A stretch of DNA of 22,666 nt from a virus: IMG/VR virus record IMGVR_UViG_3300009703_000119, positions 1 to 22,666 of that record; one strand, written 5' to 3'. A program made the translations under genes and the position numbers. Shown here in pieces: positions 1-10,706 of the stretch. Numbering within the stretch: position 1 is the stretch's first letter; the number at the start of each line of letters is the position of its first letter. The notes under the pieces are model-generated. The model made no database searches. It saw only the letters and a program-made list of their open reading frames with translations, and was not told where the DNA came from.

Positions 1-658
1 CACCAAATTCTCGAACTCCTGCCCCAAAATCTTTAACTCCACTCCATAAATTACTTCCTTGATCCCCGGCCCAATTTTTAGCAGTCATAATTCCACTCAT
101 AATTTTTCCTGGGATTCCTCCAAAGATACTAAGTGCACCTCTACCCAGAGCTCCTAGTAATCCACCGATTCCTCTTCTTTTATTAATCTGCTTAGCATCA
201 AAACCAAATTGTTGTGCATCAGGATTTAAATGAGGAGAACTCCAAGCTCCCCTTGCTCCTCTTGCGATTCGATCATCTTTAAAACTTTGAGTGTCAGGAT
301 TGTATTGTCCTCTAGTTAAAACTTTATATTGTTGGGTGTCTCTCCATGGAGTAGATCGGCTATCTCCTCCGCCTTTTCCTTCTCCCCCACCAGATTTTCC
401 GCCCCCTTGTCCACCTGAATATCCTCCAAGATCTCCTTGTAAGGAGACAATACCTGAGGGTCCTCTATTAGGTTTTCCTTTTAAGGAGCCGTATAAATCT
501 TTCTTAATTAATAAATCTTGTTCTGCGTCTGTGATGTAAGCTAAATGAGCTTCTGGGTGAGTTGGGGAAGACTTCCATTTCTTAGGAGCCGTAACCATTT
601 TTTGTTTGCCTAAATAATTAGGTCCTCCTCCCTGCATTACAGGTTTCTTTGTAGCCAT
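1..658 (-). CDS. Partial virion-type protein, Gly-rich, C-terminus outside window
   Basis: The frame opens at ATG 658 and stays open to base 1, giving at least 219 residues; the 3' end is missing. The start overlaps the TAA of the upstream nozzle-like gene (TAATG), which implies translational coupling and fixes the start. Residues about 1-75 are mixed and charged. About 76-100 is a low-complexity Gly/Ser/Lys linker. About 155-195 begins with a basic patch (KQINKRRGIGG) and continues into a Gly/Ala/Ile/Leu-rich amphipathic stretch that looks membrane-active. I do not recognise a named family. Its place directly after the last tail gene suggests an internal or ejection protein, which would be placed similarly in short-tailed phages, but that role is inferred from position and composition only. 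Confidence 0.75.
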   Translation of the reverse strand, partial: MATKKPVMQGGGPNYLGKQKMVTAPKKWKSSPTHPEAHLAYITDAEQDLLIKKDLYGSLKGKPNRGPSGIVSLQGDLGGYSGGQGGGKSGGGEGKGGGDSRSTPWRDTQQYKVLTRGQYNPDTQSFKDDRIARGARGAWSSPHLNPDAQQFGFDAKQINKRRGIGGLLGALGRGALSIFGGIPGKIMSGIMTAKNWAGDQGSNLWSGVKDFGAGVREFG

Positions 659-2832
659 TATCTTCTCCCGTCTGGTTGTATGTCCAGTCTAAATGTGCCC
701 AACTTCCAGTTTTCGGAAGTTGATGTGTTTGCTATTTTAAGCGCAATAGCTCTTCCTCGTGCGCGTGTGTCCACTTTATCAGTGGTATTGGTGATTGTAA
801 AGGGACCTAATGAAGAACTCGCTGACGAATCATTAGGATAATCTCTTAATAATAAAGTCACTTGAGTGTTTCCGGTTTGACTAATAAAATCTGGAATAAA
901 TCTTCTTATCTTCATGATGTATTCCCCGTCTCCTCTGATGTCTGGAGCTCCTAATAGTTGTCCTTGAGCCGCTCGTTTTTGAGTAATATCAAAATCTCCT
1001 GAAAGAACATTAGCAGTGACGGCTGTCACGGCTCCCCCAGCATTAATTTGATCGGTCCCTGTTTCGTGTTCATAATAAATAGTAATCCCATCGGTATTGC
1101 CTACCACATCATACGAGTCATCATCCGTGTTGTCATAATAACAGGCATGAGGTTTATCAAATACGGAAGAATCGGCCCAGGCTGTACGAGGTAAGGAACC
1201 AGTAGTCCAAATAGGTCGTTTAGTAGTAGAGTCTAGATAGTTATAAGTCACTACCCGATCCACCACATCCGAACCGGAACTACAATAATACCAACTCACT
1301 TCTCCAAAGAGGTTATTCAGTCCAGCATTAATTAAATTTCTTGGTGTAGAGTTCAATCCTTCAAAGACATAATCTTCCACTAAGCATGGCATCGATTGAA
1401 GTTGACCAGAGTATTGGAAGAAACCATTTTCTGACATCCAAAAAGCAGTACCATCCACTTCCATACAAGCATTTTTTCCAATGAGTCCGCAGTTCGTTCC
1501 CACGTGTTCAAAAGAAAAGGTAAACGGTTGACCTACAAAACGCATTAAGAATAAAGCAGAATCCGTCCAGATATAAATCGCATCACGACCTCGAATCGCT
1601 CCCATAATTTTAGAACCTTGGGCAAGTCTTTGTGTACCTGCCGTATTCGTTGAGGTTGGTGTGTAATCGGTTAAGGATTCCTGATCCGAGAATCTTATAA
1701 ACATCGCATCTTGAGAAGTTGTTGTTCCTATCGTTGTCTCCGTTCCAAAGAAAATTAAGTGACGATCTGTTGGTGATACCAACATGTGTCTGGAAGCTGT
1801 AGGAGCTCCACTGATAATCGTCGCTCGTGTTCCCGTAGGATTGGTTGCAGCCGAATCCCATTCAAAACATTCACCATTATATATTAAAGCAATAAGTTTA
1901 GTTCCATAGTTATCTAAGATCCACATTCCTGGTTCAATGGTAAAGTCAGCTGAAGACGCTTCCCCCCAGGCAACGTAGTCTGAAATATTAGTCACCGTTA
2001 CGCCTGCCGAGTGATGCGCTTTCGTAGTTCCGTTTACTCCTCTAGCTCCTCCACTTAAGGTATTCGTTGAAGTATTATTGGCGGTAAAACTAATGTCCTC
2101 TGTTCCTATTCTAATTTCTCCAGAAGTAGGAAAGGCTGCCGTGTTAGCCAGAACAATATCCGTTGTTGTCGTATCCGTTAAAGCGGTTGCTAAAGTTGTG
2201 GTTGCTGGACCTGATGCGGTCCCTGACCATTGACCGGTTCCCCAGCCAAAGCCTCCCAGTTCTTGAGCAGGTCCCACACTATAATACGTTTGAGCTCTAC
2301 AACTTCCTACTGCGCTCGTCGTTCCTGAGGCGTTACTGCCCAGCGTAATAGTAATGGTAGTAGCTGTAGGAACCGAAGTTGCCATAAATTTTTTATCTTC
2401 AAAATCTGAATCACTATAACCTGAACCCGGAGGTGCAGTCACCGTATCTAAAAGAACAATATCGTCTTCGTTCATTCCATGGGGACTTGGAAAGTTAATA
2501 GTCACCGCAGAGTCACCGCTCGTGGTTGAAAAAGTACAGCTGGTAATTGTATTTTTAATCGGGGTAATGTCATAGAACTGACCCCCTGAATAGACATATA
2601 ACATTCTATTAGTTCCTATGGCTGCGTATTTAATACCAGCATTATCATCAAAATGGTGAAGAGCTCGGCCTGCTCCTGTGAGTTTATCCTCACCGAGTTG
2701 TTGCCAGCCGCCTATCTTTTCAGGAGTTCCATACCGAAAACGTACATAGTCCCCTCCTGTCCATTGGGCTTCAGCACCCGTAGAGGTAACTTGTTTATTG
2801 AATCCTGGTAAAAATCCTACTTTTTGTAACAT
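658..2832 (-). CDS. Tail nozzle / DNA stabilization-like protein
   Basis: A 724-residue protein opening with LPGFNKQVTSTGAEAQWTGG, followed by a YVRFRYG..EKIGGWQQL segment and repeated beta strands (AAIGTNRMLYVY, LIALIYNGECFEWD, HLIFFGTE, DAIYIWTDSALFLMRF, TAFWMSENGFFQY). This is the pattern of WD-like beta-propeller tail proteins such as P22 gp10 or T7 gp12-type nozzles. Residues about 97-190 contain a PHGMNEDDIV segment resembling the 'HG..GD.V' modules of phage tail proteins. Residues about 211-282 are a separate insertion domain also found in two connector proteins of this window. The start has only a weak Shine-Dalgarno, but a candidate promoter lies 23 bases upstream. The likely role is sealing the tail and holding packaged DNA. 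The structural class is fairly secure; the exact homology is from memory. Confidence 0.7.
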   Translation of the reverse strand: MLQKVGFLPGFNKQVTSTGAEAQWTGGDYVRFRYGTPEKIGGWQQLGEDKLTGAGRALHHFDDNAGIKYAAIGTNRMLYVYSGGQFYDITPIKNTITSCTFSTTSGDSAVTINFPSPHGMNEDDIVLLDTVTAPPGSGYSDSDFEDKKFMATSVPTATTITITLGSNASGTTSAVGSCRAQTYYSVGPAQELGGFGWGTGQWSGTASGPATTTLATALTDTTTTDIVLANTAAFPTSGEIRIGTEDISFTANNTSTNTLSGGARGVNGTTKAHHSAGVTVTNISDYVAWGEASSADFTIEPGMWILDNYGTKLIALIYNGECFEWDSAATNPTGTRATIISGAPTASRHMLVSPTDRHLIFFGTETTIGTTTSQDAMFIRFSDQESLTDYTPTSTNTAGTQRLAQGSKIMGAIRGRDAIYIWTDSALFLMRFVGQPFTFSFEHVGTNCGLIGKNACMEVDGTAFWMSENGFFQYSGQLQSMPCLVEDYVFEGLNSTPRNLINAGLNNLFGEVSWYYCSSGSDVVDRVVTYNYLDSTTKRPIWTTGSLPRTAWADSSVFDKPHACYYDNTDDDSYDVVGNTDGITIYYEHETGTDQINAGGAVTAVTANVLSGDFDITQKRAAQGQLLGAPDIRGDGEYIMKIRRFIPDFISQTGNTQVTLLLRDYPNDSSASSSLGPFTITNTTDKVDTRARGRAIALKIANTSTSENWKLGTFRLDIQPDGRR
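1987..2202 (-). repeat. Shared insertion domain, copy 1 (in nozzle-like protein)
   Basis: Residues about 211-282 of the nozzle-like protein follow the pattern TTL-x-IT-x-T-I-L-x-FPTSG-x-I-IG-E-I-T-x-N-LSG-RG-x-TT-x-HS-G-V. Two other proteins in the window carry the same pattern, so it is a mobile or repeatedly used beta-rich module at protein level. Boundaries are approximate. Confidence 0.65.
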
Positions 2833-2886: not shown

Positions 2887-3531
2887 CTATTTAGGGATCC
2901 CTAACATCGCTCGCTTATCAAAGAGATTTGTCTTCGCAAAAGGACCATTCGCATGATTATAATGTAGAAAGACTTGTCCGCAGAGATTACCTTGGAAAGG
3001 TTCACGCCAGTGTTCAAGTTCACAACCAGAATAAATGAGCATATCTCCTTCTTTTAAATTAACGGGAACTCCTTTGGGAGCTCCTGGTTTGTGAATACCT
3101 TTATATTCATCAATGACATTATCCTGACCTGTTGGATCAATAAAGATGGGCCAGGGATCTCCGCCTAAATGGAGAGTGGTAGATATCTCACAGCTCGGTC
3201 GATCTTTATGACGCCTTAAAATATTTCCTTTTTCATAGACTCGGGTATATGAATACGTGGGAATAAGTTCTAACCCTGTTTTAGCTTTCATAATAGGAAT
3301 CACGTACATCAATAACGTCTCCATCACCCAATCTGAATATTTAGAATAGGCGCCGGGAACTTGTTTATCAACTCGATTTCCTATGAACGGATTATAAGGA
3401 CTTACTATATTATTTTTAAGCATATAATCCACAGCGTCCCGTTGCAATAACATATAGTTAAAAATAAAGTTAGCTAGCGATTTAGGCACCGCTTCTCGGA
3501 TCACTTGATATTTTTTAGTTTTAAAACTCAT
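2887..3531 (-). CDS. 2OG-Fe(II) oxygenase, prolyl-4-hydroxylase-like
   Basis: 214 residues. The central segment ILRRHKDRPSCEISTTLHLG gives an HxD iron motif (His108, Asp110), and GDMLIYSGCELEHWREPFQG supplies the distal His174. Together they form the 2-His-1-carboxylate facial triad of the double-stranded beta-helix dioxygenases. The Arg or Lys usually found about 10 residues after the distal His to bind 2-oxoglutarate is not there (GQVFLHY follows); Arg176 lies right beside the His instead. The enzyme would hydroxylate a protein side chain or small molecule using O2 and 2-oxoglutarate; the substrate is unknown. Its ATG overlaps the TGA-ended next gene by 4 bases (ATGA), so it is last in a coupled cassette of four oxygenases. 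The family call is good; activity is inferred. Confidence 0.8.
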   Translation of the reverse strand: MSFKTKKYQVIREAVPKSLANFIFNYMLLQRDAVDYMLKNNIVSPYNPFIGNRVDKQVPGAYSKYSDWVMETLLMYVIPIMKAKTGLELIPTYSYTRVYEKGNILRRHKDRPSCEISTTLHLGGDPWPIFIDPTGQDNVIDEYKGIHKPGAPKGVPVNLKEGDMLIYSGCELEHWREPFQGNLCGQVFLHYNHANGPFAKTNLFDKRAMLGIPK

Positions 3532-4124
3532 CGTTGAATAAAATTAAAAGAAACAGAAACTCTCCATCCTTTTTCTCCTTTTTCTTTTGTTTGATTAGAC
3601 TCTACACCATGAGGTACCCATGCAGGAAACATAATACATTCTCCTTCTCTAGGAGGATACTTAATCACTCTCCATAATTGTCTTGGTAAACCCTCTACAC
3701 GTCTTGGCATTAAAAGATTAGGTCCCGGTCTTGGATCTTCCACCCAGATACAACCTGCATCTTTAGGAACTTTAACGTAGTAAGCTCCAGACCATGTTGA
3801 GTTTGGATGAACGTGGGTCTTGTTATAAGAGCCAGGATAATTAATATTAGCCCACATATTTCCTAAAGCACATTCAGGTTGGAGTCCATAATCTTTAAAA
3901 AGTTCTTGAGCCATAATAAATAATTCTTTGAGTAAAGGTTCATATTCTGGTTTATCTCCCATGTTTGTAGGGCCATGCCATCCTCCCCCAGCGTTTGTTT
4001 TAGCAAGGGTGTTATCTTTTTTACTCCAGGCTTTAATATGTTTAAATAAATGTTTATTAAGATTTTTAGAATTAGGAAACTCCTTTATATAAACAGGAGT
4101 TGGAAATAGAAGTTCTCGGTTCAT
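3528..4124 (-). CDS. 2OG-Fe(II) oxygenase, 2OG-FeII_Oxy_5-like
   Basis: 198 residues. It starts MNRELLFPTPVYIKEFPN, the usual opening of the putative 2OG-Fe(II) oxygenase family I know as TIGR02466/PF13759 (FPTP.y...). NKTHVHPNSTWSGAYYVK (His104, His106) and FPAWVPHGVESN (His172) supply the putative metal ligands, and GWRVSVSFNF (Arg188) the 2-oxoglutarate anchor. The first motif reads HxH rather than the canonical HxD; I recall this as normal for the family. Length fits a single complete domain. The start overlaps the previous gene's stop by 4 bases and the end overlaps the next start by 4 bases. The substrate cannot be read from the sequence. Confidence 0.8.
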   Translation of the reverse strand: MNRELLFPTPVYIKEFPNSKNLNKHLFKHIKAWSKKDNTLAKTNAGGGWHGPTNMGDKPEYEPLLKELFIMAQELFKDYGLQPECALGNMWANINYPGSYNKTHVHPNSTWSGAYYVKVPKDAGCIWVEDPRPGPNLLMPRRVEGLPRQLWRVIKYPPREGECIMFPAWVPHGVESNQTKEKGEKGWRVSVSFNFIQR

Positions 4125-4705
4125 TTAAATGGGGGTCCTCCAAACCACATCACCAATGATTGTCTTATTCCTTTTTTAACCTTTGCTACTCGATGTCGAA
4201 GCATACTACAAAAGAAAATAGCTTGACCTTGTTTTAAATTCTCTGGTTTATTACCTGTGGTCATAAATTCTAATTCTCCTCCACTAAACTCTGTAGGATC
4301 CGAAAGTAAAATAGTCATAGATATTTTTCTAACGGGAGGTTCATACTGACAATGAGTTTCTGCATCCATATGCCAATCATAAAATCCACCTTTAGGGTAC
4401 TTTGTAAATTGGGCTGGCTCTGTTATTTGCATGCCCTCGTAACCAAAATGGTTTCCATTACTTCGAAGCATGGTGCTTTCAATCCTTTTATAAAAATTAG
4501 GCATCGCACTAAAAGGGATCCAACTGATAGTAGTGATTCTTTTCTTAGTATCATGCCTCCCTGCTCTTCCATCTTTATGTCCTACTTTAGCCTCCTCTTC
4601 TTTTTGCCTGTGTCCTAATCTAATAATTTCCTGGCACTCTGAGGGATTAAATAAAGGACCCAGAGTGGTTGCAATCAAAGATTTCCATTTAGGTTCTAAA
4701 ATCAT
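4121..4705 (-). CDS. 2OG-Fe(II) oxygenase, PKHD-type hydroxylase-like
   Basis: 194 residues with the full signature of the PKHD/P4H-type iron dioxygenases. FYDWHMDAETHC contains the HxD pair (His112, Asp114). FSGGELEF is the conserved strand between the ligands. GQAIFFCSMLRHRVAKVKKG contains His171, and Arg181 ten residues later (IRQSLVMWF) fits the 2-oxoglutarate binder. All expected catalytic residues are present, so an active enzyme is likely. Bacterial relatives include PiuC/YbiX-type proteins, which act near iron uptake, but the phage copy is too divergent and its context too different to transfer that role. Its start overlaps the upstream oxygenase stop (TAATG at 4705). Confidence 0.85.
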   Translation of the reverse strand: MILEPKWKSLIATTLGPLFNPSECQEIIRLGHRQKEEEAKVGHKDGRAGRHDTKKRITTISWIPFSAMPNFYKRIESTMLRSNGNHFGYEGMQITEPAQFTKYPKGGFYDWHMDAETHCQYEPPVRKISMTILLSDPTEFSGGELEFMTTGNKPENLKQGQAIFFCSMLRHRVAKVKKGIRQSLVMWFGGPPFK

Positions 4706-5352
4706 TACGCAGTCCTTGTTCTAACTGGATCATAATCTACGTCTACATTACATACTAAAGTTCTTCTTTTTTCTTTTTTGTTTGAGAATGGGTAAACACA
4801 ATGTCTCATGTCATAGGGGAAAACATAAAAGTCTCCAATATTCATTCGGGGAGAACAATCAGATTTTGCAAATTGACCTGAGGAATTTCCTAAAATTTGC
4901 AGTCGTCCATTCATCGGTTGATCCGGTCTTGTTAATTCGGGACCCATATCCTTAGGGAGTTTAAGAATCATAACAGAAGAGAGTCCTGTATAAAGATTTC
5001 CTTGATGGATATGCACAGGGTTATAATCCCCTGCTTTCATCTCATTAACCCATATAGAATTAATCTTCATATTAAATGTATGAACCATATTCCATTTTAA
5101 ATAATGAGAAAAAATACCCTTGAACCAGTTCATCATATCTGCGGGCATGTAATTATGAGTATGCATTTTGTCATTATCAGGACCTGCATAGAATAAAGAA
5201 ACTTCATCAGGAATTTTGCCTGCTAATTGTTTATTGGCATTGGGAAGATGTTTCTTTTGGGTCTCGTAAAGTTCATTCAATCCCACAAAAATCTCGAGAG
5301 GGACCTTGTAGTTTAAAATGGATTGACCTAGAAATACATAGTCAAACTGCAT
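4705..5352 (-). CDS. 2OG-Fe(II) oxygenase, 2OG-FeII_Oxy_5-like (second type)
   Basis: 215 residues. NPVHIHQGNLYTGLSSVMIL (His114, His116) and FYVFPYDMRHCVYPFSNKKE (His184), with Arg197 in RRTLVCNVDVDY, form a putative iron and 2-oxoglutarate site in the usual order. IWVNEMKAGDYNPVHIH is the conserved approach to the first ligand. As in the 198-residue neighbour, the first motif is HxH. The N-terminal 90 residues are helical and lack the FPTP opening, so this is a different subfamily rather than a recent duplicate. Similar proteins are common in marine phages, to my memory. It is the first oxygenase of the cassette, one base after the coiled-coil gene's stop codon. Confidence 0.8.
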   Translation of the reverse strand: MQFDYVFLGQSILNYKVPLEIFVGLNELYETQKKHLPNANKQLAGKIPDEVSLFYAGPDNDKMHTHNYMPADMMNWFKGIFSHYLKWNMVHTFNMKINSIWVNEMKAGDYNPVHIHQGNLYTGLSSVMILKLPKDMGPELTRPDQPMNGRLQILGNSSGQFAKSDCSPRMNIGDFYVFPYDMRHCVYPFSNKKEKRRTLVCNVDVDYDPVRTRTA

Positions 5353-5353
5353 T

Positions 5354-6019
5354 TTACTTTCCTAGTTGTTTCTTCTTATAAGAAGGGAGAAGTTCTCCTG
5401 ATTTCTTTACCCGTTTTAAAGTTTCAAGTTGACCCAATACATTAAAGACTTCAGGCTGAGAAGATCCTGGAGTTAAAGTAAGTTTCTTCTGCTCGAGTTG
5501 ATGCATATAAGATTCTGCTTGATGGGTATTAACATCCTGATCATCAAATTTACCATCATGAAATTCTTTCTTAAGTTTAGACCAGGTTGAAATTTCTCTC
5601 ATCCTTGCTTTAGCCACAAGTTCCATAGTCGCTCGACTATAAAGCTTTTGTTCTAATTCTATTTGTTTCATTTCCTTTTCTAAAGGATCTTTTTCTTTCT
5701 TAATCTCTCTTTCTTTTTTCTTAATTTCTATATCATTAAGACGATACTCAAAAGAAAGATGCATTAAGTTTTCAAAGTGAGTATTTTGTTCTCGAACCGA
5801 TTGCCAGTACTTTGCAGCGTTCGTTCCATATTTATTATCCGATAAAACTGAAAAACGCATTTCTGTTTCAGTTCTAAACATTTGTTTCTTAGCCCAAGTA
5901 TCTTGCAGCTCGGGCACCATCTTTTTAAATTCCGAAACCTGAGACTTATCTAATAAAGTCATTAAGTGTTTAACTTCTTTGTCAGCATGTTGCTGAATAT
6001 TACGTTTTGTTTTTTTCAT
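5354..6019 (-). CDS. Coiled-coil protein of unknown function, heads oxygenase cassette
   Basis: 221 residues, not recognised. It is strongly charged and helical. Residues about 94-155 (after YRLNDIEIKKKEREIKKEK) are predicted coiled coil by heptad-like spacing, and the C-terminal 40 residues are Lys-rich (LKRVKKSGELLPSYKKKQ). There is no signal peptide or membrane segment. The start is supported by AAAGGAG ahead of the ATG at 6019, and a candidate promoter lies 27 bases further upstream. It is the first gene of the transcription unit leading into the four oxygenases, with one base between its stop and the next ATG. It could be a partner or substrate of these enzymes, or a tail-associated protein; neither can be shown from sequence. 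Confidence 0.75.
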   Translation of the reverse strand: MKKTKRNIQQHADKEVKHLMTLLDKSQVSEFKKMVPELQDTWAKKQMFRTETEMRFSVLSDNKYGTNAAKYWQSVREQNTHFENLMHLSFEYRLNDIEIKKKEREIKKEKDPLEKEMKQIELEQKLYSRATMELVAKARMREISTWSKLKKEFHDGKFDDQDVNTHQAESYMHQLEQKKLTLTPGSSQPEVFNVLGQLETLKRVKKSGELLPSYKKKQLGK

Positions 6020-6045: not shown

Positions 6046-6073
6046 AATATACGTCTTTTTAGATTCAATACAA
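6046..6073 (-). promoter_or_regulatory. Candidate promoter for the coiled-coil/oxygenase cassette
   Basis: On the minus strand TTGTAT (6073-6068), 16 bases, then TATATT (6051-6046). The transcript would start near 6039, leaving about 20 bases of leader that contain the Shine-Dalgarno AAAGGAG. It lies in a 110-base gap, one of the longest in the window, immediately after a hairpin. Confidence 0.45.
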
Positions 6074-6082
6074 GTACTATTT

Positions 6083-6101
6083 CTCCTATAAAATATAGGA
6101 G
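6083..6101 (-). terminator. Hairpin after the tail-fibre module (possible terminator)
   Basis: CTCCTATA (6083-6090), a 3-base loop, then TATAGGAG (6094-6101): a perfect 8-bp stem, extendable by one A-T pair. It lies 29 bases past the stop of the Kelch fibre gene. No U-run follows in either direction (AAATAG on the minus strand), so it may stabilise or process the mRNA rather than end transcription. Confidence 0.45.
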
Positions 6102-6129
6102 AGTATTAAAGTTTTAATAAAAAAAATTA

Positions 6130-8016
6130 TTAAGTGGTAAATGTTTTAATAGTATAACTCGAAGGAATATTCCATTCTTCGGTTGCCGTAGTATTTGGTG
6201 TAGAACTGGTAGTGGCTCCTCCAAAAAATAAAGCAGAAGTATTACCTACGGTTCCAGCCCCAGATCCTGTCGCAGAACAATAAGATCGCGCTGATGATAC
6301 ATCAGCCACCTCGGTCCATGCAGTTCCATTATAGGTTTCAACATTGCCAATTGTTGTATAACTTGGAGGTCCATTTCGACCAGATATTTTTATTGCTGAC
6401 GTCGTAATACCGGCTCCGCCGCCTAAATCAGCAGCAGTATTAAATGCTCCTACTATTGTCCATGAAGATCCATCATATTCTTCAACTTGTGATCCTGGTG
6501 CTGGACCTTCAAAACCTCCTGCATATAATGCAGCTGTTTGCAGTCCAATGCATTGACCCATAGCTCTATATCTTCCGGTGTTTAAAGTACCTCCGGAAGT
6601 CCAATTGGTTCCATCGTATTCAAAACTTGTATTAGCTCCCGCAGGAGTCGTCCCAGTTGAACCACCCATAATTAAACCTGCTGTTAGTGATCCTGCTGTT
6701 CCTCCTCCTACCATTGTAGTAGGTACATTAGTTACTTCAGTCCAATTTGTTCCATCATATTCTTCAACAACAGATTGATGAGCTCCTCCCGGACTAAGAA
6801 TTCCACCTACGCTTACAGCAGCAGTTTGAATTCCAAACATGAAATTGTGATCTTTTACCATATTCATATTATTGCCTGATGACCAACTTGTACCATCATA
6901 TAAAATTGTATTATTAAGAATTTGTTCAGGGGGTCCTCCATCATAACCTCCTCCAGACACCGTTGCACTTTGAGTTCCGCAGGCGCCATAATTTCCACGC
7001 TTAGAGGGTAAAGTTCCACCTGAAGCCCACGCTCCTGTGCCTAATGTATAACCATAGGCTTTCATCGTATTACTTGTAGTATTATACCAAACTTGTCCTT
7101 CTACAGCGAGGCTCAATGGAGAAGCTGTTGACCATTCTTCTGTTGCAGTTAAAGTGGCTGAACCACCATACGCTAGGCCAAGCGTACTCGTTCCTGCACC
7201 TCCTAAATTCTCTCTTCCAGTTGCCAGATCAGCAACCTCAGTCCAAGATGTTCCATTCCATGATTCTGTAAGTGCACTACTAGGCGATCCTCCAAAAGCT
7301 AACGTAGAAGTACTACTGCCAGATCCTGCCAACAGAGATCGCGCTGTATTTAAATTATTTACTTCTGTCCATGCTGATCCATTCCAAGATTCAGTTGCGC
7401 CAGTTGCACTCGGGTCGGCTCCACCGAAACATAAAGCTGCAGTTTGAGTTCCAGCACCTCCTGGATATTCTCTCGCGGTATTTACATCTGCTACTTCAGT
7501 CCAAGCCGATCCATTCCATGATTCAGTGAGATCTTGTAGTCCCCCAGGAGGAGTATCCCCTGCAAAATATAAAGAAGCTGTAGTAGTTCCTTGTTGTGCT
7601 GAACCTGCATTTCTACGTGCCGTATTTAAAGAAGCAGGTGAAGTTGTCCAATTAGTTCCATCCCAAGTTTCAGTAGCTCCCGAAGAAGCAACAGGCGCAG
7701 GAGAGCCTGTGATACCACCAAATATTATACCCGCTGTTGTTGTTCCTGCTCCGCTTGGAAGTCTTCTAGCTGTATTGACGTTGTTTTTTTCGGTCCATGC
7801 TGTCCCATTATATTCTTCTGTTTCATTTTTAACAGTGGGTGTTTGATAACCCGCCGCTGCAATAGCTGCAGTTTGTATTCCAAAAGAAGCCAGCCCATCT
7901 CTACCAGTGTTTAAATTTCCGCCACTCGCCCATGTTCCTGAGGCTGCAGCGGTTATGTAAGGATCACTGGATAATACTTGTACTGTTGAACCTTTTATTG
8001 TTGAATAATTTGCCAT
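6130..8016 (-). CDS. Kelch-repeat tail fibre/adhesin, two propellers fused
   Basis: 628 residues built from about 50-residue repeats of the form TE-(Y/W)NG-(T/S)-(A/S)-WTE-V-x3-NTAR-x-G-(A/S)-GT-x-TA-x-FGG, a Kelch-like beta-propeller signature. Ten WT motifs are visible, five before and five after residue 300. At about residues 293-330 there is EEWSTASPLSLAVEGQVWYN followed by GTGAWASGG. This matches the C-terminal end (EEWN...) of one paralogue followed by the N-terminal head (WYNTTSG...GAWASGG) of the other. The gene is therefore a tandem fusion of two fibre units of about 300 residues, whereas the neighbours 8016-9038 and 9702-10706 are single units. It is probably a surface-exposed receptor-binding or fibre component. 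It starts on the TAATG overlap at 8016. Confidence 0.75.
   Translation of the reverse strand: MANYSTIKGSTVQVLSSDPYITAAASGTWASGGNLNTGRDGLASFGIQTAAIAAAGYQTPTVKNETEEYNGTAWTEKNNVNTARRLPSGAGTTTAGIIFGGITGSPAPVASSGATETWDGTNWTTSPASLNTARRNAGSAQQGTTTASLYFAGDTPPGGLQDLTESWNGSAWTEVADVNTAREYPGGAGTQTAALCFGGADPSATGATESWNGSAWTEVNNLNTARSLLAGSGSSTSTLAFGGSPSSALTESWNGTSWTEVADLATGRENLGGAGTSTLGLAYGGSATLTATEEWSTASPLSLAVEGQVWYNTTSNTMKAYGYTLGTGAWASGGTLPSKRGNYGACGTQSATVSGGGYDGGPPEQILNNTILYDGTSWSSGNNMNMVKDHNFMFGIQTAAVSVGGILSPGGAHQSVVEEYDGTNWTEVTNVPTTMVGGGTAGSLTAGLIMGGSTGTTPAGANTSFEYDGTNWTSGGTLNTGRYRAMGQCIGLQTAALYAGGFEGPAPGSQVEEYDGSSWTIVGAFNTAADLGGGAGITTSAIKISGRNGPPSYTTIGNVETYNGTAWTEVADVSSARSYCSATGSGAGTVGNTSALFFGGATTSSTPNTTATEEWNIPSSYTIKTFTT
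7027..7140 (-). repeat. Internal tail-to-head junction of fused Kelch units
   Basis: This segment encodes a unit terminus (TEEWS) joined to a unit start (GQVWYNTTSN...GTGAWASGG). The same head is found at residues about 25-50 of both neighbouring Kelch proteins. It marks where two formerly separate fibre units are fused. Confidence 0.65.
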
Positions 8017-9038
8017 TATGTTACTGTCACCGTTTTAACTGCTGCCGGTGCTCCATCCCATTCTTCTACATTTGCTAATACTGAGTGATTAGCCGGTTTG
8101 TTTGAACCTGACATAGAAAGGGCCGCTGTGGAAGTGCCCGCTCCTTGCGTTGCTTGCATTTGTCTTGCTGTCCCTAATGTTCCAGCCGTTGTCCAAGATG
8201 TACCATCCCATGTTTCACTATTATTAGTTACTTTATATGTAACTGGTGGACTAGAGTATACCCCACCATATTTAAGACAAGCTGTAGAAGTTCCTGCCCC
8301 TCCACCAAGGCTGGATCCAAAATTAACATCGCCAACTTCTGTCCAAGCGCTTCCATTCCAACTTTCGCATAATATTGACTCACTACTTGCAGGACCACCA
8401 CTTGACACTAAAAATGCTGATGGAGTTCCGTGGCTGGAACCAAATAATTCAGTTCTACCACTATTCATATCTGCTGCTTCTGTCCAATTGGTTCCATCCC
8501 AATCTTGATTTCCTCCAGGATTTCCTTCGCCGGATACACATAGACCGGCTGTGGCTGTTCCACCACTGGCACATCCACTAACACCTTCATCTAAGTTATT
8601 TACTTCTGTCCATGCTGAACCATTATAAACTTCTGTAAAAGCTGTTGCTGGAGGAGGTCCAACTCCACCGGCAATTAATCCAGAAGTTGAGCTAGCTCCA
8701 AATCCTGCTCCACCTCTTCGTACTGTGTTAACATCATTACTGGTATCGGTCCATGCTGATCCATTATAAGAAAGAGTAGAAGCCACCATACTACCATCAG
8801 GAATTCCTGGTTGTTCTTGTCCAGTAATAAATAAAGCTGCTGTGGTACTTCCAAAACCCATAGATCTCTGTCTTCCTGTAGGAACATTATCGCTTGAAGC
8901 CCAAGCTCCTGTTCCCACACCATCAAACTTTAATGCACCTGAAGTAGTGTTATACCAAATACGTCCCATAATAGCAGGCGTCGGATCGGACGCTACACTT
9001 TGAACTTTAAAACCTTTTATACCTTTGTATTCAGCCAT
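8016..9038 (-). CDS. Kelch-repeat tail fibre/adhesin, single propeller
   Basis: 340 residues. The N-terminus MAEYKGIKGFKVQSVASDPT plus GRIWYNTTSGALKF is a short head shared with the 334-residue paralogue at 9702-10706. Five Kelch-like repeats follow with WT motifs at residues about 96, 143, 185, 232 and 282. The last partial repeat, VEEWDGAPAAVKTVTVT, matches the paralogues' ends (EEWN...IKT.T). The N-terminal GAWASSDNVPTGR half-repeat and the C-terminal EEWD strand could close a ring, suggesting a six-bladed propeller (inference). It is probably a host-recognition appendage. It overlaps the fused paralogue downstream by TAATG at 8016 and starts after a GGGGAAA-type ribosome site. Confidence 0.75.
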   Translation of the reverse strand: MAEYKGIKGFKVQSVASDPTPAIMGRIWYNTTSGALKFDGVGTGAWASSDNVPTGRQRSMGFGSTTAALFITGQEQPGIPDGSMVASTLSYNGSAWTDTSNDVNTVRRGGAGFGASSTSGLIAGGVGPPPATAFTEVYNGSAWTEVNNLDEGVSGCASGGTATAGLCVSGEGNPGGNQDWDGTNWTEAADMNSGRTELFGSSHGTPSAFLVSSGGPASSESILCESWNGSAWTEVGDVNFGSSLGGGAGTSTACLKYGGVYSSPPVTYKVTNNSETWDGTSWTTAGTLGTARQMQATQGAGTSTAALSMSGSNKPANHSVLANVEEWDGAPAAVKTVTVT

Positions 9039-9047
9039 ATATTTCCC

Positions 9048-9368
9048 CTAGGGTAACTCATATTTAGAAGGTCGCGGATGCAACATTGATCCATCGCCTC
9101 TTGTTTTTTGCACTAATGGAATTGCATCCCATCTTGTTTGAGATTCTTCCATTGCAGCATCCACAATTACTTGTGCTTCTTCTTTTGTTTTTTCAATTCC
9201 GTTTACGCGTTTAATCCACGCTTCGCCTTTTTTATTATTACCAACAGCCCAAATTCCCCCACTGGCTAACTGACCCTCATGGCCAGCTATAAAAAAATCA
9301 TTACGATCTTGTTGAGTAATAAATCCTTTGCCGGTATCAATAGCCGTACAATATAAATATCTTGCCAT
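9048..9368 (-). CDS. Small tail-module protein, paralogue A
   Basis: 106 residues, unknown family. It aligns with the adjacent 94-residue protein over its whole length: TA.DTGKGFIT.QDRNDF, GH.G, W.VGNN..G..WI.RV, KT.EEAQ.IVDA..EE.Q..WDA and a C-terminal PRP.KY.L. The first half looks beta-rich and the second half is an amphipathic helix. This copy has an extra GGIW insertion and a longer stretch before PRPSKY. Lying among Kelch fibre genes, it may be a fibre cap, an assembly factor or a small structural subunit; the sequence does not decide. It starts 9 bases after the sister gene's stop, with AGGAGA upstream. Confidence 0.7.
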   Translation of the reverse strand: MARYLYCTAIDTGKGFITQQDRNDFFIAGHEGQLASGGIWAVGNNKKGEAWIKRVNGIEKTKEEAQVIVDAAMEESQTRWDAIPLVQKTRGDGSMLHPRPSKYELP

Positions 9369-9377
9369 AGTTATCTC

Positions 9378-9662
9378 CTACGCTAATGTATATTTTATAG
9401 GTCTTGGATTGTTCACTTGCTCTTCAGCCGACAATGCATCCCAAGCAGCTTGTGCTTCTTCAATCTTGGCATCAACAATCGCTTGTGCTTCTGCTTTTGT
9501 CTTAGCTTCCCCACTTACTCTATTGATCCAGGATATACCTGCAGCATTATTACCTACAACCCAAACATCACCAAGATGTCCAGACAAATGGAAATCATTA
9601 CGATCTTGATGCGTAAAGAATCCTTTCCCTGTGTTAGTCGCTGTACAATATGTATTTGCCAT
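9378..9662 (-). CDS. Small tail-module protein, paralogue B
   Basis: 94 residues, MANTYCTATNTGKGFFTHQD..., clearly homologous to the neighbouring 106-residue protein and tandem with it. The C-terminal half (KTKAEAQAIVDAKIEEAQAA) is a well-formed amphipathic helix, followed by NPRPIKYTL. The start has a strong AAGGAGG site about 6 bases ahead. The pair separates the first Kelch fibre (9702-10706) from the second and third, so the order is fibre, small pair, fibre, fused fibre. Function is unknown. The duplication looks old, because identity is patchy outside the motifs. Confidence 0.7.
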   Translation of the reverse strand: MANTYCTATNTGKGFFTHQDRNDFHLSGHLGDVWVVGNNAAGISWINRVSGEAKTKAEAQAIVDAKIEEAQAAWDALSAEEQVNNPRPIKYTLA

Positions 9663-9701: not shown

Positions 9702-10706
9702 TTAACTTACTGTCACGGTCTTGATTGCATAAACGGGATCGTTCCACTCTTCACTTTCATTACTATTAGATCCTTTTTCTCCAGCTACGGCCAAAGCGCT
9801 ATTCGAAGTTCCTGTTGGAGACCCAGCCAAATAATAACGTGCTGTAGACATATCAGCTATTTCAGTCCAAGCACTTCCATTCCAAGATTCTGTTAGAGCA
9901 TCATACCCACCATCAGGACCAAGACCCCCAAAACATAGTGCCTCTGTTTGAGCAGCCGGTCCACCAGAACCTCCCGGCCCATAACGTGCGGTATTTAAGT
10001 CACCCACTTCTGTCCAACTTGAACCATCATATTCTTCTGTTACGGCTTGATAGGCTGGAGCTGCTCCAGCATAAACTATAGCTGTAGTTTGAGTTCCTTG
10101 TCCTGGTAAATTTTGTCGAGCCGTATTAAGATTACTTACTTCCGTCCAACTAGAACCATTAAACGTTTCAACATCTGCCGTAGCGCCTCCTGTACCAGGA
10201 TTATTAGTATCTCCTCCGGCTAAAAGACCTGCAGTCGTTGTTCCTGCCGCTCCTCCGTAAGTTCGTGCGGTATTTAAATCTCCAGTTTCTGTCCAAGCGC
10301 TTCCATTATAAATTTCGGTAACACCTAATTCAGATCCCGGACCTACCCCTCCTGCTGCGAGTCCAGCGGTAGTTGTACCTGTTCCCCCTATATCTCTACG
10401 AGCTGTATTTAAATTTGAAACTTCGGTCCATGCCGTTCCGTTATAAGTTTCAGTGTCACCAGTTTTACCTCCTGGAGCTTGACCACCAAAAGTAAGGTTT
10501 GCGGTTTGACTTCCTGCACCACCATTTCCATAACGAGCTGTATTTAAATTTCCACCTGAAGACCATGCGCCAGATCCAGCGACAGCTATTTTAAATGCTC
10601 CAGTTGTAGAATTGTACCAAAGTTTTCCTGCATAGTTATCTGCAGGAGTAGGATCTGTTTCTAAACTTTCAACAGCTATACCTTGGATACCTTTGTAAGT
10701 TGACAT
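9702..10706 (-). CDS. Kelch-repeat tail fibre/adhesin, first of three
   Basis: 334 residues. The head MSTYKGIQGIAVESLETDPT and GKLWYNSTTGAFKI matches the 340-residue paralogue. Five clean repeats follow (NG.AWTEVSNLNTAR...GT.TA.L..GG), then the end SEEWNDPVYAIKTVTVS. Repeats are more regular here than in the other two proteins (NLNTAR occurs in almost every one), so this copy may be nearest the ancestral form or recently homogenised. It is probably a receptor-binding fibre. No strong ribosome site is seen; the start lies 6 bases after the upstream stop and is fixed by matching the paralogue's N-terminus. Expression may rely on coupling. Confidence 0.75.
   Translation of the reverse strand: MSTYKGIQGIAVESLETDPTPADNYAGKLWYNSTTGAFKIAVAGSGAWSSGGNLNTARYGNGGAGSQTANLTFGGQAPGGKTGDTETYNGTAWTEVSNLNTARRDIGGTGTTTAGLAAGGVGPGSELGVTEIYNGSAWTETGDLNTARTYGGAAGTTTAGLLAGGDTNNPGTGGATADVETFNGSSWTEVSNLNTARQNLPGQGTQTTAIVYAGAAPAYQAVTEEYDGSSWTEVGDLNTARYGPGGSGGPAAQTEALCFGGLGPDGGYDALTESWNGSAWTEIADMSTARYYLAGSPTGTSNSALAVAGEKGSNSNESEEWNDPVYAIKTVTVS

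Follow-up and report, generated by a model that had tools for sequence, protein, structure and literature searches.

What would a phage gain from four different iron-dependent oxygenases encoded one after another inside its tail module? The question is raised by positions 2,887 to 6,019 of IMG/VR virus record IMGVR_UViG_3300009703_000119, a 22.7-kb record (22,666 nucleotides, analysed over its full length and hereafter called the window) with its late genes on the minus strand. There, a lead gene (E) is followed by four genes for 2-oxoglutarate (2OG)-Fe(II) oxygenases or proteins of that fold (D, C, B and A), and the group is placed between three genes for kelch-like fibre proteins and the gene for the tail nozzle. 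We propose, with a probability of roughly 0.4, that it is a late-module cassette for decoration, carried by a podovirus of the HTVC023P type that probably infects SAR11, and that it hydroxylates virion proteins, probably the fibres. Ocean viruses commonly carry 2OG oxygenases as 'metabolic' genes. The constant position next to the nozzle gene, the exchange of oxygenase sets together with the fibre type and the insertion of sulfotransferases point to virion proteins rather than host metabolism. The features concerned are the following (aa, amino acids):

5354..6019, minus strand: gene E, 221 aa, all-helical and K/E-rich, lead gene of the cassette
4705..5352, minus strand: gene D, 215 aa, 2OG-Fe(II) oxygenase, PF13759, H114-x-H116...H184...R196/R197
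4121..4705, minus strand: gene C, 194 aa, 2OG-Fe(II) oxygenase, PF13640, similar to PKHD-type and prolyl-4-hydroxylases, H112-x-D114...H171...R181-x-S
3528..4124, minus strand: gene B, 198 aa, 2OG-Fe(II) oxygenase, PF13759/TIGR02466, H104-x-H106...H172...R188-x-S
2887..3531, minus strand: gene A, 214 aa, predicted double-stranded beta-helix Fe(II) oxygenase fold, phrog_2954 (labelled ferrochelatase), H108-K-D110...H174
658..2832, minus strand: tail nozzle or stabilisation protein, phrog_3287 (8.3e-99), next gene downstream of A
6130..8016, minus strand: kelch-like fibre protein, phrog_27227, ten (W/Y)(N/D)G(T/S)xWT repeats mostly 42-49 aa apart, candidate substrate
8016..9038, minus strand: second kelch-like fibre protein, five repeats
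9702..10706, minus strand: third kelch-like fibre protein, four repeats matched
6046..6072, minus strand: weak promoter-like element TTG-N18-TATATT preceding E, with a similar element in some relatives

The initial annotation had described four consecutive oxygenase genes, two of the HxD type and two of the HxH type, coupled by ATGA or TAATG overlaps, and we found them so at 2887-5352, intact and co-oriented, with A and C of the HxD type and B and D of the HxH type. Read directly at the junctions, C/B and B/A each share an ATGA overlap of 4 nucleotides and D/C a TAATG overlap of 1 nucleotide; E and D are separated by a single nucleotide. The nozzle protein is 46-48% identical to those of HTVC023P, HTVC027P and 023Pt_psg01, and we place the window among the HTVC023P-type pelagiphages on this related nozzle and the order of the late genes. 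Cultured relatives infect HTCC1062, and related contigs are found in the Pelagibacteraceae assemblies L364 and L365.

Scans with each cassette protein gave 202 non-redundant groups of loci, among them a few cultured relatives. The dominant arrangement was E-D-C-B-A-nozzle, or a part of it cut by the end of the contig, with C/B, B/A and D/C junctions mostly of -4 nucleotides. The expected co-occurrence and order between fibre and nozzle genes were thus seen in most groups, and the opposite outcome, four genes scattered and unlinked in related genomes, did not hold. Nor were the iron-binding residues lost, the ligand columns being conserved at about 100% across relatives. The median ratios of nonsynonymous to synonymous substitution rates (dN/dS) were 0.063-0.088 for the five cassette genes (0.065 for E) and 0.082 for the nozzle gene, showing strong purifying selection on the cassette. 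Given the recurring order, the conserved ligands and dN/dS values of 0.06-0.09, the cassette is not a product of chance.

Every query in these scans belongs to the cassette, which biases them; loci were therefore also collected through the nozzle alone. Among 32 nozzle-anchored loci with at least 3.5 kb of upstream sequence, counting oxygenases within 8 kb, 31 had at least one and 29 at least three. Only some of these are closely related to D, C or B; the rest are other oxygenases that occupy the same position. Cassettes of three to six oxygenases are common, and the loci containing E mostly have four (94 of 131), with a maximum of six. The view that four in a row is unusual must therefore be dropped: besides the 29 nozzle-anchored relatives, HTVC008M has five consecutive oxygenases and S-CREM1 nine. 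Gene order, overlaps, conserved ligands, dN/dS values like that of the nozzle and the position beside it all argue for a role in virion decoration.

Regarding the enzymes themselves, B, C and D match Pfam families above the cut-off of 27 bits: B PF13759 (5e-23, 81.8 bits), C PF13640 (1.2e-13, 52.2 bits) and D PF13759 (1.9e-10, 41.5 bits). Their iron motifs read HVH...H in B, HMD...H in C and HIH...H in D (HKD...H in A), and the ligands are kept, with a downstream Arg-x-Ser or Arg-Thr, in about 100% of 143-176 sequences. In D, H114, H116, H184 and R196 are invariant, as is the iron triad of C among relatives. B exceeds the TIGR02466 cut-off (126 against 62.5 bits), and its profile matches 3bvc (1e-24) and 2rg4 (9e-23). 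The profile of C matches the PKHD hydroxylases 3dkq (9e-11) and PiuC 9ghl (9e-10). B and D belong to the same Pfam family and are barely alignable (34% identity over 41 aa), with a weak match between their profiles (E 0.0018), while the profile comparisons of A with B and of A with C gave no signal. Side-by-side subfamilies had been taken to argue against tandem duplication; for B and D an old duplication is possible. They had also been taken to argue for a cassette acting in one pathway, which is at most a hypothesis: A and C share no detectable similarity, and the make-up of the set differs from one relative to another.

Gene A is assigned to phrog_2954 by its PHROGs match (8e-51), labelled 'ferrochelatase' in that database. 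It has no Pfam match, the ferrochelatase model in Pfam was matched by none of 37 diverse members of the A family at E<=1, the A protein of the window has no NCBIfam match at E<=0.1, and a sequence search of the PDB gave no genuine relative. An AlphaFold2 model built from 34 sequences (predicted local distance difference test score, pLDDT, 91.4; predicted template modelling score 0.87) forms a double-stranded beta-helix. With this model, the top Foldseek match was the prolyl-4-hydroxylase of Pseudomonas putida (1.8e-9), and there were 603 PDB matches at E<=0.001, nearly all of them, among the matches listed, 2OG/Fe(II) oxygenases. VIA-align gave Z scores of 15-16.6 to 2OG oxygenases (15.8 to 4j25); families missing from its list were not counted as evidence. 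H108, D110 and H174 are invariant in the 37 sequences and lie, in the model, on or beside the strands where iron ligands belong. A thus seems to share its fold with the P. putida enzyme (4iw3, solved with EF-Tu, and 4j25) and with PHD2 (VIA-align Z 15.5-15.8), but it is only 14-15% identical to them and has no Arg or Lys 8-16 residues after the distal His, H174, the usual place for binding the C5-carboxylate of 2OG. Hence we infer 2OG use by A only from the fold, with the invariant R97, R176 and H190 as candidate replacements for the basic residue.

On the predicted structure, the 'ferrochelatase' phrog_2954 has an oxygenase fold like that of prolyl hydroxylases. This bears on a published view of the ecology of these phages, which takes the A family for ferrochelatases that partner the oxygenases (PMC9599517, for the HTVC023P-type group; PMC11561400, naming phrog2954) and phrog_2954 for haem synthesis; given the fold, the supposed partner in haem synthesis is probably one more oxygenase. 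That A supplies iron or haem chemistry to its neighbours, as the database label and both papers would have it, is extremely improbable, since A carries HxD...H on a beta-helix, its best matches are non-haem Fe(II) oxygenases and none of the 37 family members matches the Pfam ferrochelatase model. Nearly as hard to sustain is a role in nucleic-acid modification or repair (AlkB- or TET-like, or as endonuclease V), suggested by the PHROGs labels phrog_274 and phrog_2297 and by weak matches to PF09859 and Tet_JBP. These matches are under the cut-offs, the proteins so labelled match PF13640/PF13759 or PF20043 better, and the genes are in the tail module, not among DNA genes. A fold like that of a protein hydroxylase in A, with its best match solved together with EF-Tu, and the similarity of C to PKHD-type and prolyl-4-hydroxylases point to protein side chains.

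Which proteins, then? On the nozzle tree, E-D-C-B-A and other oxygenase sets alternate, and supported branches force at least ten changes. Among loci with enough upstream sequence, kelch-like repeats were found in 36 of 39 with E-D-C-B-A and in none of 23 with other sets, and in independent pairs the cassette type and the kelch fibres go together in 7 of 8 (sign test, p 0.016). E-D-C-B-A and the kelch fibres therefore behave as a joint module, and the co-exchange gives indirect support to a virion target. Sets and inserts so often replaced at a single site, together with the lack of similarity between A and C, could also be expected of unrelated passengers in a recombination hotspot, each acting independently on its own target. 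We consider this improbable, as most of the family keeps one fixed order with 4-nucleotide overlaps and all four oxygenase genes are under the same constraint.

The position in the tail module and the exchange with fibres also weigh against a role in host takeover, in which host proteins (EF-Tu, ribosomal proteins) would be hydroxylated or 2-oxoglutarate and nitrogen signalling shifted, as proposed for cyanophages. In its favour, the closest solved fold to A is the prolyl hydroxylase solved with EF-Tu, a hypothesis on 2OG levels has been published (PMC3037559) and such genes have been read as metabolic (PMC9599517, PMC9602691). Depleting 2OG, however, does not call for several different oxygenases. 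We regard this explanation as somewhat unlikely, though it is a serious rival, as is the modification of glycans or small molecules discussed below.

A second decorating chemistry enters the same cassette in relatives, which carry inserts at fixed slots. Of 251 loci, 38 have a first sulfotransferase (ST1, PF13469, 4.6e-15), with few exceptions in the E/D interval, and 32 a second (ST2, PF03567, just over the cut-off), which almost invariably lies between A and the nozzle gene; 59 have one or both. On the D tree, supported branches require at least nine gains or losses of ST1. In the window, the interval from E to the nozzle gene contains no sulfotransferase. That sulfotransferases arrive at two slots is a further point for virion decoration. 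Another insert is a 157-aa ParB-N-like gene (weak similarity only), seen at L091:7543-8016 and 68 other loci, mostly between B and A (43 cases) or E and D (22).

ST1 is followed in some loci by a short kinase and a nucleotidyltransferase. Examples of the two genes are at L199:5273-6002, L316:8974-9438 and L378:4467-5248. The kinase matches APS kinase (PF01583, 5e-9, in L316) and in phage cassettes occurred with ST1 only (11 of 11, Fisher 7e-9), never without it where the E-D interval was fully seen; independent pairs support this link at p 0.06 only. The nucleotidyltransferase, of the HIGH type, is nearest to NMN adenylyltransferase by NCBIfam. Since the model host HTCC1062 is without sat and cysDNC (PMC5069961), a supply of activated sulfate is an attractive role for the pair. 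Sulfate activation as its certain role was rejected, given the NMN-adenylyltransferase-like partner, the p value of 0.06 and the occurrence of the pair in SAR11-family genomes near one-carbon or betaine-like genes (judged by eye), not sulfate genes.

The sulfotransferases may instead belong to a cassette whose target is a glycan, a lipid or a small molecule, in the infected cell or in the virion, for a surface change or superinfection exclusion, with sulfotransferase and glycosyltransferase partners. In two cultured cyanophages, sulfotransferases lie a few kb from 2OG oxygenases, once with an A-type gene, and S-SRM01 groups a sulfotransferase with a glycosyltransferase, an epimerase and a 2OG oxygenase. 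Glycosyltransferases also follow the nozzle gene in HTVC023P and HTVC027P, and small-molecule oxygenases rank close to A. This explanation leaves the link with kelch fibres unexplained and finds no biosynthetic scaffold genes nearby, and we hold it to be unlikely.

Under hydroxylation of virion proteins, the oxygenases would be translated together with the late virion genes, and, with Fe(II), 2-oxoglutarate and O2, each enzyme would add hydroxyl groups to side chains of virion proteins as the virion assembles, most likely to those of the repeat fibres whose genes lie upstream. The helical protein E may be an adaptor or help assembly. Where relatives have ST1 or ST2, the enzyme may go on to sulfate tyrosines or hydroxylated residues, and the outcome would be an altered receptor-binding surface. 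A fuller version, in which exchangeable oxygenase sets, each suited to a fibre type, hydroxylate the fibres and some lineages add sulfate to them through sulfotransferases, helped by a host-derived kinase and nucleotidyltransferase pair perhaps supplying activated sulfate in a host unable to make it, is decidedly doubtful. If true, marine phages would diversify their receptor-binding surfaces chemically as well as by sequence, via a decoration pathway in the tail module.

Several observations count against fibre hydroxylation. Genes that stand side by side can move in one recombination event, which could explain the co-variation of cassette and fibres without functional coupling; what we describe is a module that moves as one, and a shared function would be a further step. 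In HTVC027P the structural genes and the three oxygenases are on opposite strands, the runs of S-CREM1 and Syn9 have a tryptophan halogenase and numerous small genes as neighbours, not fibres, and the small-molecule oxygenases SnoN and FtmOx1 rank next to A in structure searches. Our literature searches found no hydroxylated phage virion proteins.

Gene E, with more than 590 relatives in IMG/VR, had no match among cultured phages at E<=0.01. Its AlphaFold2 model (mean pLDDT 79.6) contains helices only, and assignment to a known fold was dropped after a PDB fold search gave no match at E<=0.001. The initial annotation had E leading the cassette with its own candidate promoter. It is the lead gene in this cassette family; as to the promoter, a generic scan gave nothing above chance and no hit directly upstream of E. 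A weaker element, TTG-N18-20-TATAnT, stands before E in 23 of 85 relatives, where shuffled sequences gave 0.8; the count is uncorrected for relatedness. A hairpin before E (about 6084-6104) was discarded, as it is not common to the listed relatives. Between the fibre genes, 9048-9368 and 9378-9662 are adjacent small genes with similar products of 106 and 94 aa, apparently a tandem duplication.

Consecutive coupled 2OG oxygenases including an A-type gene are also found in T4-like marine phages (HTVC008M, Mosig, Syn9 and S-CREM1). In HTVC008M they are gp072-gp068, four recognised by Pfam or the C profile and one of the A family; in S-CREM1 ORF72-80, one annotated as JmjC; and in Syn9 gp45-gp54, with at least eight members having some Pfam or A-family support, some of it under cut-off. 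S-SCSM1 has 24 2OG oxygenases in its genome (PMC9602691). The T4-like runs differ from the window in morphotype and members, are larger and often near tryptophan halogenase, and no E was seen in them. The halogenase lies close to the runs of HTVC008M, Syn9 and S-CREM1 (L356:1296-2690, L358:1-1463 and L360:405-2009) and may belong to the same chemistry. Several members of the Syn9 run bear the label 'DNA endonuclease V' or that of a 'minor coat protein'. More generally, phrog_2297 (DNA endonuclease), phrog_274 (DNA endonuclease V) and phrog_1644 (minor coat protein) match 2OG oxygenase models (L033:2600-3043, L033:5314-5970 and L358:6291-7998); these labels look wrong and seem to hide further oxygenases, so that such genes are undercounted. 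Ten oxygenase-type genes were found in 7.8 kb of a contig filed under a Flavobacteriaceae metagenome-assembled genome (L373:271-7766), which is probably phage. As in the window, the runs of HTVC008M and Mosig are beside structural genes, and the placing of T4-like clusters among neck, baseplate or fibre genes favours a virion target.

Outside phages, the likeness of C to the PKHD-type hydroxylase PiuC/YbiX (3dkq, 9ghl) covers the profile region and the triad, at a score far under the equivalog cut-off (59.9 against 143 bits). Within our partial coverage of the literature, we found no prior account of how the 'ferrochelatase' folds, of oxygenase sets changing along with the fibre type or of the sulfotransferase slots, and claim no priority. 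That HTVC023P-type phages carry multiple oxygenases is already known in outline: the groups of oxygenases and 'ferrochelatase' described for them (PMC9599517) come from the same phage group, families and neighbourhood as the window. That paper describes its genes as near but not adjacent and takes the A family for a ferrochelatase, whereas the window has four directly overlapping genes, the lead gene E and the kelch fibres.

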